64,000 nucleotides of DNA from Acetobacter fallax (GTDB lineage: Bacteria; Pseudomonadota; Alphaproteobacteria; Acetobacterales; Acetobacteraceae), in assembly GCF_011516735.1 (NCBI RefSeq), contig NZ_WOSX01000003.1:62001-126000 (forward strand). The letters run 5' to 3'. The translations under genes were made by a program, and so were the position numbers. The notes under the pieces were generated by a model. That model made no database searches. It was not told the DNA's origin and saw only the letters and a list, made by a program, of their open reading frames with translations. Shown here piece after piece: positions 33,880 to 39,900 of the stretch; within the stretch, counting starts at the first letter, position 1; each line of letters begins with the position of its first letter.

Positions 33880-35346
33880 TTACGCCGCCCTGAACCTCGC
33901 CGTCGCCTCATCGCACAGATAGTGTGACACCCTCGGATACGGAGCGCGCGCGAGATTATCCACCGCACCGATAATCCGGTCTGCCTTCTCATCACTCAGC
34001 AACACGCTCAGATTGAGCCGCACCCAGCCCGGCTTGAGAATTTCCTCACCCGCCAGAATCGCCTCCAGCAATCGGGCAGACTCCGCTTCCCCTATCCCCA
34101 GCAGACGATGAGCGTATGGCCCGGCACACGCGCATCCGCCCCGCGCCTGAATCCCATAACAGTCCGACAGCATTCGCGTGAAAAGCTGCTGATGAATCCA
34201 GCCGCCCTTCACGGAATCTCTCACCCGGAAAGAAAAAACGGGCAGAGCATGCTTCGCCGTAACATTCCCCAGAACCTCAATATCCGGATTTCCCGACCAC
34301 CGTTCCAGAGCCCGACGGCGCAATTCCGCATGCCGCCGGTCCATCTCCTCCTGGCCAATCGCATCCTTCACCAGAAACACCAGTGCTGCCCGGATATCCC
34401 CCACGACATTCGGCGTCCCCGCCTCTTCCCGTGATACCAGATCGCCGCTGTATTCATGCCCCCAGGGCGACACAAACCGCACTGTCCCGCCGCCAGGACA
34501 AACCGGTCGCGACATCCCCACCGCGCCCTTTCGTACAATCAGAACCCCCGATGCCCCCGGGCCGCCTATAAACTTATGAGGCGACACGACCACAGCATCT
34601 TTCTGACACGTCGTCCCGACACGCATGTCGATCGGCAAATACGGCCCGGCGCCGGCATAATCCCATACCACCGCAGCCCCATGCCGCCGCAGCAAAGCAC
34701 TGACCGGATCAGGATCCGTCACAATCCCACTTACATTGGACGCTGCTGAGAACGCCCCGACCTTCACCCGGTCATTACCGGCTTCCGCCAGAACCCGCTC
34801 CAGAACCACCAGATCCGGGCCACCTTCAGCCACCTCCGGAATCCCGATCACCTCAGCACCGCTCTCACGCCAGGGCAGAATGTTCGAGTGATGCTCATAA
34901 GGCCCGATCAGCACCAGTGGCCGCTCGCAAAGTCCCGCAGCAGCCTTCCGCGCTGCCTCCCCGACACCCAGCAACTCAACCAGCCGGTTCAGCCCTGCAG
35001 TTGCGCCCGAGCCGGCAAAAATCGTCGCGTAATCGTCAGTCGCACCGCACAGCCCGGCAATGATCCGCCGCCCGGCCTCACGCGTCCGCCCGGAATACCG
35101 GCCGCAAAACGACGCCTCCGTGTGCGTATTCGCATAATATGGCAGCACATGCTCCATCACGAAGTTCTCGACCTGCCGCACAGCTCGCCCCGACGCCACG
35201 TAATCCGCATAAACCAGCGTCTTCGGCCCAAATGGCCCGGGAACGGACGCTCCTTCCCCGATCACCCCCGCTGCAAGCCGCGCCAGCCGGTCATCCCCCA
35301 GCAAAGACTCCGAAAATGCTGCAAAAGACGCCTGATCCGAAACCAT
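33880..35346 (-). CDS. Class V aminotransferase (cysteine desulfurase-like fold)
   Basis: PLP enzyme of 488 residues, longer than IscS/SufS (about 400). Lys258 in VSPHKFIGGPGASG is the PLP anchor; YEHHSNILPWRESG and SAASNVSGIVTDP are the usual cofactor loops. A Cys-rich loop GGCACAGPYAH lies where desulfurases have their catalytic cysteine. The C-terminal 60 residues extend the fold. It is divergent from an Lrp-type regulator, so it may act on an amino acid that the regulator senses. I cannot name the substrate. Confidence 0.88.
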   Translation of the reverse strand: MVSDQASFAAFSESLLGDDRLARLAAGVIGEGASVPGPFGPKTLVYADYVASGRAVRQVENFVMEHVLPYYANTHTEASFCGRYSGRTREAGRRIIAGLCGATDDYATIFAGSGATAGLNRLVELLGVGEAARKAAAGLCERPLVLIGPYEHHSNILPWRESGAEVIGIPEVAEGGPDLVVLERVLAEAGNDRVKVGAFSAASNVSGIVTDPDPVSALLRRHGAAVVWDYAGAGPYLPIDMRVGTTCQKDAVVVSPHKFIGGPGASGVLIVRKGAVGMSRPVCPGGGTVRFVSPWGHEYSGDLVSREEAGTPNVVGDIRAALVFLVKDAIGQEEMDRRHAELRRRALERWSGNPDIEVLGNVTAKHALPVFSFRVRDSVKGGWIHQQLFTRMLSDCYGIQARGGCACAGPYAHRLLGIGEAESARLLEAILAGEEILKPGWVRLNLSVLLSDEKADRIIGAVDNLARAPYPRVSHYLCDEATARFRAA

Positions 35347-35425
35347 TCTGATCCACCCTCACCCCGACATGTGACGGACAGATCATCACCTGCCAGCACT
35401 CAAAACTCTTCCTCTGTTTTTTCCT

Positions 35426-35465
35426 TCATAATGTAATATTTGTGTCATATGATCGCTCATTATGA
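35426..35465. promoter_or_regulatory. Inverted repeat at the aminotransferase/Lrp divergent promoter
   Basis: TCATAATG (35426-35433) and CATTATGA (35458-35465) form a perfect 8-bp inverted repeat in an AT-rich 115-base intergenic region. The right arm overlaps the start of the Lrp gene. It is a good candidate for autoregulatory binding of the Lrp protein; this is inference. Confidence 0.45.
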
Positions 35466-35920
35466 GAAATATCGATCATATTGATCGCGCAATACTCCGT
35501 ACCCTGCAGCGCGATGCCTCCCTCTCGCAGCGCGCTCTCGCTGATGCTGTCGGCCTGTCGCAAAACGCCTGCTGGAAACGCCTCAATGCCCTGAAGGAAA
35601 GTGGTCTCCTCGGCCAGCACACCCTCCGCCTCAATCCAACCGATCTCGGTCTTGGCTTCACTGCCTTTGTCATGGTCCGGACCCGCCATCATGACCACAA
35701 CTGGCTCACCCGTTTTCGCAACCTCGTCCTCGCCATCCCGAACGTCACAGATTTCCACCGCATCGCCGGAGAATACGATTATCTGCTGAAAGTCGTCGCC
35801 CGTGACATGCAGGATTTCGATAGGGTCTACCGGAACCTGATCGAAAAAATCGACCTCGATACCGTCACCTCCCACATCGTCATGGAAGCCATCGCGGATA
35901 ACCGCGAACTGCCGATCTGA
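35462..35920 (+). CDS. Lrp/AsnC family transcriptional regulator
   Basis: The 152-residue product has an N-terminal winged helix-turn-helix (DRAILRTLQRDASLSQRALA, then GLSQNACWKRLNALKESGLL) and a C-terminal RAM ligand-binding domain (GLGFTAFVMVRTRHH ... IAGEYDYLLKVVARD). It is transcribed away from the class V aminotransferase gene across a short AT-rich region, the usual arrangement for a local amino-acid-responsive regulator. Confidence 0.94.
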   Translation: MRNIDHIDRAILRTLQRDASLSQRALADAVGLSQNACWKRLNALKESGLLGQHTLRLNPTDLGLGFTAFVMVRTRHHDHNWLTRFRNLVLAIPNVTDFHRIAGEYDYLLKVVARDMQDFDRVYRNLIEKIDLDTVTSHIVMEAIADNRELPI

Positions 35921-36027
35921 TACGTCCGGATAATCATTTCGCCTGGTGACTTCAAAAGAAACCATCCTCTACTTATGCTCCATCCGGACACCAGGCTCCC
36001 AACGCAGCAACCAGACGAGAAAAACAG

Positions 36028-36993
36028 ATGCATCCTGAGGCGCGACAGGTCAGCCCGGACTCCCTCCCGGTCATCCCGGTTGCAGGGCTCTGCTCCTCAG
36101 ACCCTGTACAAAGACAGGCCGTCGGCGACGCCCTGCGCACCGCCTGCGCCAGCACAGGATTTTTCTACTGCGTGGACCATGGCATCCCACCGGCGCTGAT
36201 CGACGCTGTCCTCGCCGAAAGCAAAGCCTTCTTCGCCCGCTCCCCCACCGACAAAGCCGCCCTCGACAAGGCCCGTTCGCCCTGCAACCGGGGCTACGAA
36301 CCTCTGCGCAACCAGACGCTCGAAGCCGGAACCCCGCCGGACCTCAAGGAAGGCTTCTACATCGGCGAAGAACAGCCCGCGAACGCCGCAGAACTTCGCT
36401 TCAACCAGGGCCCCAACCAGTGGCCCCGGAACAGCGCAGGCTTCCGCCCGACCATGATGGCCTACTTCGCCGCCCTGAATATCCTCGCCGAAAGACTGAT
36501 GCGCGGCATCGCCCTTTCCCTCGGTCTGGAAGAAACCTTCTTCACTCGCTTCTGCCAGAATCCCCAGGCCACGCTCCGCCTCCTGCATTACCCGCCTCAG
36601 CCTTCCGACCCGCAACCGGGAGAAAAAGGCTGCGGAGCCCATACGGATTTCGGCGGCCTCACTCTTCTGCTCCAGGACGCAAGCGGTGGTCTCCAGGTCC
36701 GTGGTCCCGACGATACCTGGATCCACGCCACCCCCATTCTCGGCAGTTTCATCGTCAATCTCGGTGACATGATCGCCCGCTGGACCAATGACCGCTACCG
36801 CTCCACCCTGCACCGCGTGGTGAACACCTCCGGTACGGACCGTTACTCCGTGCCGTTCTTCCACAGCGGCAACCCCGATTACGTCATCTCATGCCTGCCG
36901 GGTTGCCTGGCGCCCGGCGAAACCCCCCGTTACCCCTCTGTCACAGTCCAGGACCACCTCCGCGAAATGTATCAGCGAACCTACGGCCAATGA
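36028..36993 (+). CDS. 2-oxoglutarate-Fe(II) oxygenase, isopenicillin N synthase family
   Basis: The 321-residue product has the DIOX_N domain (VIPVAGLCSS ... GFFYCVDHGIPPALI) and the catalytic double-stranded beta-helix. Iron ligands are His205, Asp207 (GAHTDFGGLTLLLQD) and His262 (STLHRVVN); Arg272 and Ser274 in DRYSVPFF should bind the 2-oxoglutarate carboxylate. All key residues are intact, so it should be active. Its stop overlaps the next start (ATGA), making a coupled three-gene operon with a hydrolase and a BMP-type binding protein. Confidence 0.93.
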   Translation: MHPEARQVSPDSLPVIPVAGLCSSDPVQRQAVGDALRTACASTGFFYCVDHGIPPALIDAVLAESKAFFARSPTDKAALDKARSPCNRGYEPLRNQTLEAGTPPDLKEGFYIGEEQPANAAELRFNQGPNQWPRNSAGFRPTMMAYFAALNILAERLMRGIALSLGLEETFFTRFCQNPQATLRLLHYPPQPSDPQPGEKGCGAHTDFGGLTLLLQDASGGLQVRGPDDTWIHATPILGSFIVNLGDMIARWTNDRYRSTLHRVVNTSGTDRYSVPFFHSGNPDYVISCLPGCLAPGETPRYPSVTVQDHLREMYQRTYGQ

Positions 36994-37748
36994 GCGCGCC
37001 CGAACCCCTGATCCTGATCCACGGCGCCTGGCAGGGCTCATGGGTCTGGGACGGCTTCCTCGCCGCCCTGTCACAACGCAGCGGAAACCGGTACGAACCC
37101 ATCCCCGTCGACCTCCCCGGCAATGGCGCCGACGGCGCGCCGCCCGGTACCGCCTCGATGGCCACCTATCTCGACCATCTGGATACTCTCGTCGCCAGCC
37201 TCGACTGCCCCTTCACCCTCATCGCCCACTCCGGAGGCGGCGTCGTCGCCTCCGCCCTCGCGGAGCGCTACCCTGATCGCGTCCGCCGCATCATCTACAT
37301 CGCCGGAATGATGCTGCCCTCCGGAATGGGGTTCGCCGAAGTCGTGGACCGCATCCTCCCCCAGGATCCCACAGTCGCCGGCATCACCCCCTGGCTCGAC
37401 TGGCCCGTAAAGGGTGAAATCTCCGTCGTGCCGCCGGAAGCCGCCATCGCCTTCTTCCTGCAGGACTGCCCTCCTGCACTCGCCGTCCCCGCCGCCCGCC
37501 GCTTCACAGCACAGGGTGAACAGGGCCGCGCCCTCACTGCCCGTCTGACCCCGGAGCGATACGGCCGCGTCCCGCGCCTTTACGTCCAGGCGACACAGGA
37601 CCGCTCCGTCACCCTCCCCCTGCAGCGCCTCATGTGCGAACTCGTCCCTGGCACTGCCGTCCGGTCCGTGGACACCGGCCACGCCCCTCATGTCGTCGCG
37701 CCCGACACCCTGCTCGATGTGATTCTTCCCTTCCTCGACACACCCTGA
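36990..37748 (+). CDS. Alpha/beta hydrolase (esterase/salicylic-acid-binding-protein-like)
   Basis: The 252-residue product starts at the ATGA overlap. LILIHGAWQGSWVWD is the oxyanion-hole region, Ser81 in IAHSGGGVVAS the nucleophile, Asp in QATQDRSV and His in TGHAPH the remaining triad. The closest look is to small esterases of the methyl-ester/hydroxynitrile lyase type. A start further upstream would overlap the oxygenase gene. Its stop overlaps the next start (TGATG). Confidence 0.92.
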   Translation: MSAPEPLILIHGAWQGSWVWDGFLAALSQRSGNRYEPIPVDLPGNGADGAPPGTASMATYLDHLDTLVASLDCPFTLIAHSGGGVVASALAERYPDRVRRIIYIAGMMLPSGMGFAEVVDRILPQDPTVAGITPWLDWPVKGEISVVPPEAAIAFFLQDCPPALAVPAARRFTAQGEQGRALTARLTPERYGRVPRLYVQATQDRSVTLPLQRLMCELVPGTAVRSVDTGHAPHVVAPDTLLDVILPFLDTP

Positions 37749-38926
37749 TGCCCGGACAGACACAGTCGCCCCCCGGACCCGTCATCCCCCGGCGAACCCT
37801 GCTGGGTCTCGCTGCCTCCCTGCTTCCCGCTTCCGTCTGCACCGGCACCACGCCCTCGAAAGCCGGACTGCCTCCCGACCCGCCTCTCACCCGGCTGGCT
37901 GCCCCATGGGCCACGCCGCCCCTGCTCCCCGCCATCCGCGAGGAAGACGCCCTCCTCGCCATCGCCCATGTCGGCCCGGTATCGGACGGCGGCTGGAGCA
38001 CCATCCACAACGAAGCCGTCGCCAGCGTCCGCACCGCCTTTCCCCGCCTGCGCACAGTCTGGGTGGAAAGCGTGCCCTACTCAGCCGACGCCACACGGAT
38101 CTTCCGTCAGTTCGTCGCCGAAGGTGCGAACATGGTTCTCTCCAGTGCCGATTATGGCGACTTTCTCATGGATGTCGCCCGTCTGGCGCCCGAAGTCGCT
38201 TTCGTGCAATGCGACAGCAATCTGATCTCCCGCAACGTGAGCTGGTACTACGTCTCACAATGGTACGCCTGCTACGTCATCGGCGTCGCCGCGGGGCTGC
38301 TCACCCGAACCGGCCAGATCGGCTACATCGCCTCCTTCCCTCTGCCCTCCGTCTACGCCAGTGCCAACGCCCTCCTCCTCGGAGCCCGGTCCGTCAGACC
38401 GGATGCCACTGTCCGCGTCGTCTCTATCAACTCCTGGTTCGATCCGCAGGGCGCGCTGGGTGCTGCCACAGCCCTCGCCGACAGCGGCTGCGACATCCTG
38501 AGCGGCATCATGGACGAGCCCGCTTATCTGAGACTCGCCCAGGCCCGGGGCCTCTGGGCCATCATGTCCAATAACGACGAACGCGCCGCCGGACCGGACG
38601 CCTATCTCAGCTCAATCGTGTACGATTTCAGACCCTATTACGTCGAACAGGTCCGCGCCCGCCTGGAAGGCCGCTGGACCCCCACCCCTGCCTTCCTCCC
38701 TCTCGGTGCCGGCACCGACCGCGACGCATGGGGCGCCCGCGTGCCCGAAAACGTCCGCCGCCAGGCCGACGCCGTGCGCGCCCGCATCCTGACCGGGTGG
38801 TCTCCCTTCGCCGGCCCGATCCACGACAGCCACGGCAACCAGCGTGTCGCCGTCGGCGAAACAATGAGCGATCTCACCCTCTACCATTGGAACTGGCCCG
38901 TCGACGGCGTCCTCGGGCTGGACTAG
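37748..38926 (+). CDS. BMP-family periplasmic binding protein
   Basis: A 392-residue type I periplasmic binding protein of the Bmp/PnrA/Med group, which bind purine nucleosides or bases. The export signal contains twin arginines (PRRTLLGLAASL, Arg15-Arg16) and a Cys at 31 that does not sit in a canonical lipobox. IAHVGPVSDGGWSTIHNEAV, SADYGDFLMDVA, IGYIASFPLPSVYA and MSNNDERAAGPDAYLSSIVYD (in part) are typical. No permease or ATPase gene is next to it. It ends at CTAG, convergent with the NDUFAF6-like gene region. Confidence 0.9.
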   Translation: MPGQTQSPPGPVIPRRTLLGLAASLLPASVCTGTTPSKAGLPPDPPLTRLAAPWATPPLLPAIREEDALLAIAHVGPVSDGGWSTIHNEAVASVRTAFPRLRTVWVESVPYSADATRIFRQFVAEGANMVLSSADYGDFLMDVARLAPEVAFVQCDSNLISRNVSWYYVSQWYACYVIGVAAGLLTRTGQIGYIASFPLPSVYASANALLLGARSVRPDATVRVVSINSWFDPQGALGAATALADSGCDILSGIMDEPAYLRLAQARGLWAIMSNNDERAAGPDAYLSSIVYDFRPYYVEQVRARLEGRWTPTPAFLPLGAGTDRDAWGARVPENVRRQADAVRARILTGWSPFAGPIHDSHGNQRVAVGETMSDLTLYHWNWPVDGVLGLD

Positions 38927-39054
38927 CCGTCAGACCGAAGGCTTTCTCCCGCCCGGAACCAGTCCATCCATCCCCGATAGCCACGCACCCCAGGCTGATC
39001 CGGTTCGTCGAACGCGCCACCGCGCTCCTGGACATTTTCCAGGTAACGAGACCG
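38923..39054 (-). other. Protein-like in-frame tail after the stop of the NDUFAF6-like gene
   Basis: Directly after the TAG of the 39055-39900 gene, the same frame runs 43 more codons to a second TAG. The reading (RYLENVQERGGAFDEPDQPG, then RGYRGWMDWFRAGESLR) looks like real protein, but no ATG, GTG or TTG precedes it; the first is an internal GTG. It may be a separate gene with a rare start, a remnant, or the true C-terminus lost to a nonsense change. Its stop shares CTAG with the BMP gene on the other strand. Confidence 0.4.
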
Positions 39055-39900
39055 CTACCGCCTCCGCAACCCGGCGATCGCCACTGCCAGCCTGTCCCCG
39101 ATCCCGCGACTGACCTCTCCCGCTACAGCCGTCCCGCGGCGCAAATCCCGCGCAGCCAGCACCCCGGGCAACATCGCCAGACGTGAGGTCCGCGACTGGC
39201 TCTCCAGCCGCCCGGGCAACAATGCCAGTCCTTCCTGACGCAGCCAGGAACTGACAGACTCAAGCCGACCCGGCCCAAACAGATCTCCCGGCTCAGCATC
39301 CGATTCCAACCCGACCGCCCTCAGCACCTCAACCGGCAACGGCATCCGGCCGCTCCGAAGCACCCCGGGCAAATGACGCAGCAACGCCCCGACTGCGAAT
39401 GCGGCACCCGACCGCGCAACCGTAGCCAGCACAGCCTCATCCGCCTCACCGAGCAGCCCCGCCACCATCCGCTGCACCATACCCGATCCGCCCAGCATCA
39501 TCTGCCGCCACGCAGCCTGATCGGGAACCCGGTACAGCTCCGTTTCCCGTGCATCCACCAGTGACAGCAGAGCCTCCGCCGCGACTCGCTCCTGCCTGAG
39601 CAGCCCCGCCACCGCCACAGCAACATCGTGACGCGCCTGAATGCCCCGCGCAGGCTCCGCAATCACGTCCCGCCACCATTGCAGCCGGATCAGACCGGCC
39701 ATTGGCCCCGTTAACGAACCGGAGACCGGCAGCACCGTCGCTCGCGATAATTCGTAATTGAAGGCGATCAGCACAAAAGCACACGCCCGCACCTTCGGCG
39801 GCAGAAACATCGCGCAGAAATGACGATCAGGGTCACGCAGACGTGCAATTTCCGCGCACGCCTCCCGTGCAACCGCGAATGCATCCTCTTCCGTGCTCAC
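39055..39900 (-). CDS. Squalene/phytoene synthase-fold protein, NDUFAF6-like
   Basis: The 281-residue product has the isoprenoid-synthase helical fold pattern: DPDRHFCAMFLPPKVRACAF, LIAFNYELSR and GLIRLQWWRDVI. The first Asp-rich motif (DXXXD) of true squalene synthases is missing, as in the NDUFAF6 group of complex I assembly proteins, so I do not expect prenyl transfer. It is convergent with the BMP gene and divergent from sodB. HpnC/HpnD are alternatives but lack of the Asp motifs argues against them. Confidence 0.75.
   Translation of the reverse strand: MSTEEDAFAVAREACAEIARLRDPDRHFCAMFLPPKVRACAFVLIAFNYELSRATVLPVSGSLTGPMAGLIRLQWWRDVIAEPARGIQARHDVAVAVAGLLRQERVAAEALLSLVDARETELYRVPDQAAWRQMMLGGSGMVQRMVAGLLGEADEAVLATVARSGAAFAVGALLRHLPGVLRSGRMPLPVEVLRAVGLESDAEPGDLFGPGRLESVSSWLRQEGLALLPGRLESQSRTSRLAMLPGVLAARDLRRGTAVAGEVSRGIGDRLAVAIAGLRRR

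Follow-up and report, generated by a model that had tools for sequence, protein, structure and literature searches.

A conserved oxygenase–hydrolase–binding protein gene unit of Acetobacter fallax, probably feeding a purine-like compound through an ABC importer encoded elsewhere

A 64,000-nucleotide stretch of the Acetobacter fallax genome (contig NZ_WOSX01000003.1, positions 62,001 to 126,000; referred to below as the window, in whose numbering coordinates are given) contains a real, conserved unit of three genes, OXY, ABH, and BMP. These encode a 2-oxoglutarate (2OG)-Fe(II) oxygenase, an alpha/beta hydrolase, and a periplasmic binding protein of the BMP family. The unit probably feeds a purine-like compound by way of an ATP-binding cassette (ABC) importer that is encoded elsewhere in the genome. 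On balance, it is best regarded as an accessory cassette for the uptake and oxidation of a nucleobase-type compound, in which the orphan BMP would borrow an unlinked importer and OXY and ABH would act in the cytosol. An original prediction for this locus had proposed a route for capture and degradation of a purine-like or ester-containing small molecule, and that earlier interpretation is partly supported.

All three reading frames are open and lie on the forward strand. OXY (36028–36993) encodes 321 amino acids (aa), ABH (36990–37748) encodes 252 aa, and BMP (37748–38926) encodes 392 aa. OXY and ABH overlap by four bases (ATGA, 36990–36993), and ABH and BMP share one base within the sequence TGATG (37746–37750). 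The ABH frame can be extended to a start at 36891, the coupled start being the ATG at 36990. The coupling of the three genes, the intactness of OXY and ABH, and the absence of an adjacent permease had all been predicted, and each was verified. No ABC gene adjoins the unit, which is preceded by a gene for a Lrp/AsnC-family regulator and followed by an opposite-strand SQS_PSY gene.

OXY, ABH, and BMP occur in the same order in eight genomes and in at least four gene neighbourhoods. The carriers are A. fallax itself, A. musti LMG 30640 (G018), G001, Acetobacter sp. UBA5411 (G036), Gluconacetobacter liquefaciens, Ga. dulcium, G107, and G229; L024 and L106, which are an identical record, are taken once in this count. 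One set of flanks is shared by A. fallax and A. musti, another by G001 and UBA5411, and a third by the two Gluconacetobacter genomes. In G107 and G229, a guanine-deaminase-like gene common to both lies in convergent orientation behind the unit. The ATGA overlap between OXY and ABH is found in six of the eight carriers, including A. fallax, and is missing in the two Gluconacetobacter, and an overlap of ABH and BMP (TGATG or ATGA) is possible in all eight. Conservation as a unit within the Acetobacteraceae, which had been suggested as a check on the grouping, is thereby confirmed.

The unit is rare. A close BMP (78–100%) together with a close OXY (82–100%) was found in 4 of 49 genomes of the genus. 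In the family sample, OXY was matched at E 1e-90 or better in 7 of 299 genomes, of which A. fallax, G107, and G229 possess the unit. For the remaining four (G067, G157, G210, and G313), the extracted surroundings of OXY gave no match to ABH or BMP, the G210 contig ending just behind OXY. OXY relatives were present in 4 of 385 genomes of the class sample, A. fallax counted, and no ABH match was found near OXY in the other three. A plasmid collection yielded 206 records with BMP relatives (E limit 1e-40) and 6 with relatives of ABH (E limit 1e-25), all at <60% identity. A text search of titles and the starts of abstracts, which had most subscription papers outside its reach, found no literature on this gene unit among the papers listed.

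Two BMP-family genes exist in the A. fallax genome. The second, located on contig C32, encodes a protein 58% identical to BMP; it is preceded by a nicotinamidase-like gene and followed by genes for an ABC ATPase and two permeases. When permease 1 was used to search the entire genome (E 1e-20 or better), one match appeared, on contig C32, and none within the window. The same search was applied to nine genomes, comprising the eight carriers and G043, and a single match was found in each of eight, i.e., in every carrier. G043, which possesses OXY and ABH, gave no permease 1 match at this limit and no BMP at E 1e-60. In all eight carriers, then, a complete transporter with its own BMP is located elsewhere in the genome, so that each has both a same-family permease and a paralogous binding protein. 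The original prediction had named such a cognate permease, encoded elsewhere with its own binding protein, as one of two findings that would count against it, and this is what contig C32 and all eight carriers show. The capture-and-degrade idea survives only if modified, with an orphan BMP that would share the C32 importer. A complete transporter at the unit itself was considered and rejected: no ABC gene is adjacent, and no permease match lies near the unit in the window or near the seven other units. In G001 and UBA5411, the unit is adjoined only by a gene whose 637-aa product resembles the ATPase across 196 aa (35%).

Phylogenetic analysis placed the eight orphan, permease-less BMPs in one branch, with support of 98/99. 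None of the transporter BMPs that these genomes also encode falls within that branch; they group among 15 transporter BMPs of Acetobacteraceae, in a branch whose support (84/94) is below the tool's mark for strong support. It follows that the BMP duplication either predates the split of the genera or was passed between them. At E 1e-60, BMP was matched in 16 of 49 genomes of the genus; all four orphan carriers are among these, each with a second, transporter BMP. In the family sample, BMP was matched in 40 of 299 genomes, including the three carriers, which have two BMPs each. The corresponding p-values (0.0086 by Fisher's test for the genus, 0.0022 for the family, and 0.0002 for a deaminase described below) are too small, because the eight carriers are few and related.

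The family assignments made originally were upheld, with all three proteins scoring above the Pfam cut-offs. OXY matches PF14226 (7.5e-28) and PF03171 (1.4e-25) and, together with its HxD...H and RxS motifs, is of the IPNS/DIOX_N type. Its iron ligands by motif are H205, D207, and H262, and its 2-oxoglutarate motif is R272-x-S274; these residues are invariant in 11 of 11 sequences, A. fallax included. Among PDB matches are 9ovh (4.4e-60), 6jyv (2.3e-58), and, in ninth place, thymine dioxygenase 5c3p (7e-42). ABH matches PF12697 (1e-23) and PF00561 and has a putative catalytic triad by motif (Ser81, Asp204, and His231) that is invariant in all ten sequences compared, including that of A. fallax. 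Its best PDB match reaches only 1.2e-14, and none of the 14 NCBIfam families listed for a named activity, such as enol-lactonase or BioH, was matched at cut-off (best score 43.1 bits versus 300). No signal peptide was seen on reading the OXY and ABH sequences. BMP belongs to the BMP/PnrA-like family (PF02608, 3.8e-26, 92.2 bits versus a cut-off of 24.1), with PDB matches to 3s99 (6e-52) and AtzT (6pi5, 1.5e-48). The twin-arginine-like signal that had been noted in BMP also holds: Arg15-Arg16, encoded at 37790–37795 on the forward strand, is invariant in all eight orphan BMPs. Compared with their A. musti orthologues, the genes differ at codon positions 1/2/3 by 38/28/156 (OXY), 46/27/130 (ABH), and 42/32/183 (BMP).

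As described in PMC6834077, guanine is sandwiched in AtzT by Tyr45 and Trp194, with polar contacts from Ser97, Glu165, Asn218, and Asn220. By alignment, the BMP equivalents of Tyr45 and Trp194 are Trp83 and Trp230, and the aromatic sandwich is therefore retained. In contrast, Glu165, Asn218, and Asn220 correspond to Ser201, Ile254, and Asp256, a state also found in the transporter BMPs that were aligned. Orphan BMPs have Ala134 where transporter BMPs have Ser, in a gapped stretch of the alignment; the AtzT Ser97/Phe98 stretch aligns to BMP with a gap, and is hence uncertain. With the ring-stacking positions kept and the AtzT polar set replaced, a planar ring is the likely ligand and guanine is not implied. 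Transfer of the AtzT ligand by residue identity was accordingly rejected.

A purine-like substrate class is favoured by gene context in relatives. The loci of 80 of 147 BMP relatives were surveyed, of which 3 were orphan units and 77 were others; in the latter, the ATPase and permease 2 were matched in 77 of 77 and permease 1 in 75. An amidohydrolase matching the 8-oxoguanine deaminase of Rhizobium daejeonense (24–100% identity) is found in 61 of the 77 transporter loci, although its distant members may be other amidohydrolases. The reference protein from R. daejeonense is above the cut-off for 8-oxoguanine deaminase (602.6 versus 532). The same 77 loci include an adenine-deaminase-like gene in 35 cases, a gene for a Rieske-oxygenase catalytic domain in 59, and a nicotinamidase-like gene in 10. 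OXY (58%) is present in four, all of them rhizobial records, and is accompanied by ABH in one. In Rhizobium alvei, the gene order is BMP-ATPase-permease-permease-OXY-ABH-8-oxoguanine deaminase-Rieske catalytic gene.

Purine-type neighbours are also found at the unit itself. For example, in G107 an amidohydrolase gene of the 8-oxoguanine-deaminase family is directly upstream of OXY-ABH-BMP, and its product is 65% identical to a deaminase, termed type B, from contig C4 of A. fallax (outside the window). Type B scores 549.7 bits on the 8-oxoguanine deaminase model NF006055, above the cut-off of 532. It is 72–87% identical to a transporter-locus gene product in 11 Gluconobacter and Asaia records and 75–77% identical to one in three Mesorhizobium records and one Rhizobiaceae metagenome-assembled genome. 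Seven of the eight orphan carriers have type B. Within the genus, it is found by score in three of four carriers and in none of 45 other genomes (p 0.0002). In this count, G021 alone of the others was fetched (it proved to be type A); G012 has an untyped partial match over 263 positions, and five genomes fall into a third, likewise untyped group scoring ~425–437 bits. In G043, OXY-ABH is convergent with a xanthine permease gene (455 bits versus 414). Two more distant OXY relatives, in G662 (53%) and G583 (52%), have a ring-opening AtzD/TrzD-type amidohydrolase in their surroundings, tested by profile in G662 and identified by eye in G583; a nucleoside hydrolase and another BMP transporter are also present in the G583 stretch. 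The A. fallax genome also encodes a guanine deaminase (554.9 versus 375.4) and XdhA (621.8 versus 467). Of the two substrate options originally offered, the purine-like class is thus the one that context favours, and nothing other than the hydrolase family name points to the ester option.

Some further features of these genomes were observed in passing. The "Rieske" gene of the transporter loci encodes a VanA_C catalytic domain with no Rieske-domain match, and its nearest solved structures are SxtDIOX and SxtT, followed by the methylxanthine demethylases NdmB and NdmA. In R. daejeonense, the opposite strand has a gene for a distinct Rieske-domain protein further upstream, which suggests a split Rieske oxygenase. 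The loci concerned are L070:15364-16218, L070:6344-7138, and L005:4639-5514. G043 has a second OXY-like gene (~42%; L107:3177-4999) that is apparently broken over two frames and adjoins the xanthine permease gene and a gene that reads like an AraC-type regulator. In UBA5411 (L106:11890-13907), two genes are located downstream of the unit and convergent with it. One encodes 352 aa and matches the Rieske-group gene at 31%; the product of the other (314 aa) is reductase-like by reading. A second guanine-deaminase-like gene of A. fallax (L149:1716-3089; 367.5 bits versus a cut-off of 375.4) is found on a 4.8-kb contig between open reading frames that read like transposases.

The following sequence of events is proposed. 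BMP would be exported by the twin-arginine translocation (Tat) system and would capture a planar, purine-like heterocycle between its two aromatic residues. In place of a permease of its own, it would dock on the AtzT/PnrA-like ABC importer of contig C32, whose range would thereby be widened. In the cytosol, an amidohydrolase from the 8-oxoguanine-deaminase family may deaminate the imported compound, with type B as a fourth candidate part of the system. OXY could then oxidise the compound with 2-oxoglutarate and O2, and ABH could hydrolyse the oxidised product. Of this scheme, the docking on a shared permease, the substrate class, and the nature and succession of the enzymatic reactions are inferences. 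A more specific version, in which an oxo- or amino-purine, or a purine derivative, is processed in two steps by OXY (oxidation) and ABH (hydrolysis) with no need for a molybdenum hydroxylase, and in which BMP re-targets an existing ABC importer, is rather unlikely to be correct as it stands. If it were, a "binding protein plus enzymes" module would extend substrate range without a new transporter.

Several points weigh against the proposed reading, in addition to the inflated p-values, the distant amidohydrolases, and the replaced polar residues of the pocket. OXY and ABH occur together in only 1 of the 77 transporter loci. A number of the purine-type neighbours fall short of their cut-offs, including the G107 amidohydrolase (467.7 versus 532), the guanine-deaminase-like proteins behind the unit in G107 and G229 (370 and 368 versus 375.4), and the adenine-deaminase-like protein of R. 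cremeum (347 versus 472.5). Type B is missing in A. musti. Within the genus, the 8-oxoguanine-deaminase family as a whole does not mark the transporter and was rejected in that role, being found in 9 of 16 genomes with the transporter versus 21 of 33 without (Fisher p 0.76); there, type B alone follows the distribution of the orphan unit. Moreover, no deaminase match was found in the transporter loci of eight named Acetobacter records, A. fallax, G001, G018, and G036, and most Acetobacter transporter loci have instead a nicotinamidase-like gene (161.5 bits versus a cut-off of 174).

There is a substantial chance, if less than even, that the architecture is as proposed, so that the transport part of the scheme would stand, and that the substrate is instead a pyrimidine, pterin, pyridine, other N-heterocycle, or alkylated derivative. 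The departure of the pocket from AtzT, the distant relationship of OXY to thymine dioxygenase, and the nicotinamidase-like gene in the Acetobacter transporter operon all fit such a substrate. So do the surroundings of the OXY relative in G662 (52–53%), where the AtzD/TrzD-type amidohydrolase shares one stretch with a hydantoin/Asp/Glu racemase-family gene and an amidase. Against this, the commonest informative neighbours are of purine type, i.e., 8-oxoguanine deaminase, adenine- and guanine-deaminase-like genes, and xanthine permease.

The borrowing of an importer has precedent, as PMC7731109 documents orphan binding proteins that work with permeases encoded at other sites. The same source describes the pairing of binding protein and permease as highly specific in most cases, which argues against borrowing. 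An alternative is that BMP does not serve uptake at all and acts as an orphan sensor or as a periplasmic ligand buffer, with the enzymes acting on a metabolite made in the cell. The lack of a permease in all eight units and the separate history of the orphan BMPs are consistent with this role. However, a related transporter is kept in every carrier, the transporter locus of four rhizobial records itself includes a relative of OXY, and, on reading of the neighbours, no sensory partner gene recurs across all four neighbourhoods. A sensor or buffer is therefore considered improbable. Finally, the rarity of the unit could mean that its genes are in decay or were grouped by chance, with no joint function; this is very improbable given its retention with overlapping starts in eight genomes and at least four neighbourhoods, the excess of third-position differences, the invariant motif residues, and the conserved Arg pair.

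With respect to the immediate surroundings, the Lrp/AsnC-family regulator gene (35462–35920, forward strand; PF01037) is also upstream of the unit in A. musti (88%) and had no match near the unit in the six remaining carriers. It was rejected as a member of the unit, being confined to the A. fallax and A. musti neighbourhood. The SQS_PSY gene, assigned by Pfam, is at 39055–39900 on the reverse strand. A scan of positions 35300–39400 for promoters and terminators found one forward-strand promoter-like site (35425–35453), upstream of the Lrp gene, and one forward-strand terminator-like site inside BMP (38146–38159), with none at the end of the unit. Divergent to the regulator, at 33880–35346, is a gene for a 488-aa class V aminotransferase-like protein that scores below every NCBIfam cut-off (best sufS, 120.2 versus 475.1).

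If the favoured account is true, bacteria can extend the range of an ABC importer through an enzyme unit that supplies just a binding protein and relies on an existing pump, and functions can be given to an oxygenase–hydrolase pair of acetic acid bacteria and at least one rhizobium. Among enzymes, thymine-7-hydroxylase (5c3p) resembles OXY as an IPNS-type 2OG oxygenase with iron and 2OG motifs. Judged by motif spacing rather than alignment, and from residues named in PMC4787775, both also have an aromatic residue after HxD and a Phe after RxS. Their sequence kinship is distant (E 7e-42). The residues that they share are probably generic to the subfamily, so no substrate claim for OXY follows, and their use as proof of a base substrate was rejected. 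HxnY of Aspergillus, another thymine-7-hydroxylase relative, was of no help as a guide because its own function is unsettled (PMC9304392).

Among binding proteins, AtzT (6pi5) and the purine-binding BMP of Brucella melitensis (3s99) are like the protein described here in sequence, Tat-type signal, and aromatic sandwich positions. They differ in that BMP has no transporter genes beside it and has the AtzT polar set replaced. The BMP-ATPase-permease-permease loci of alphaproteobacteria have a BMP 50–63% identical to it, many with 8-oxoguanine- and adenine-deaminase-like genes, and that of Rhizobium alvei also has OXY (58%) and ABH (45%). In A. fallax, on the other hand, a second BMP is joined with OXY and ABH in a unit of its own, to which no transporter or deaminase genes belong. 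The orphan binding proteins of zinc systems, notably in streptococci, are alike in being extra binding proteins outside the operon and paralogous to the operon's own, as set out in PMC7731109. Here, by comparison, BMP is coupled to two catabolic-type enzymes, and its docking is predicted. In the same paper, AdcA and AdcAII share a permease at 39% identity and sharing fails at 25%, as compared to 58% identity between BMP and its C32 paralogue.

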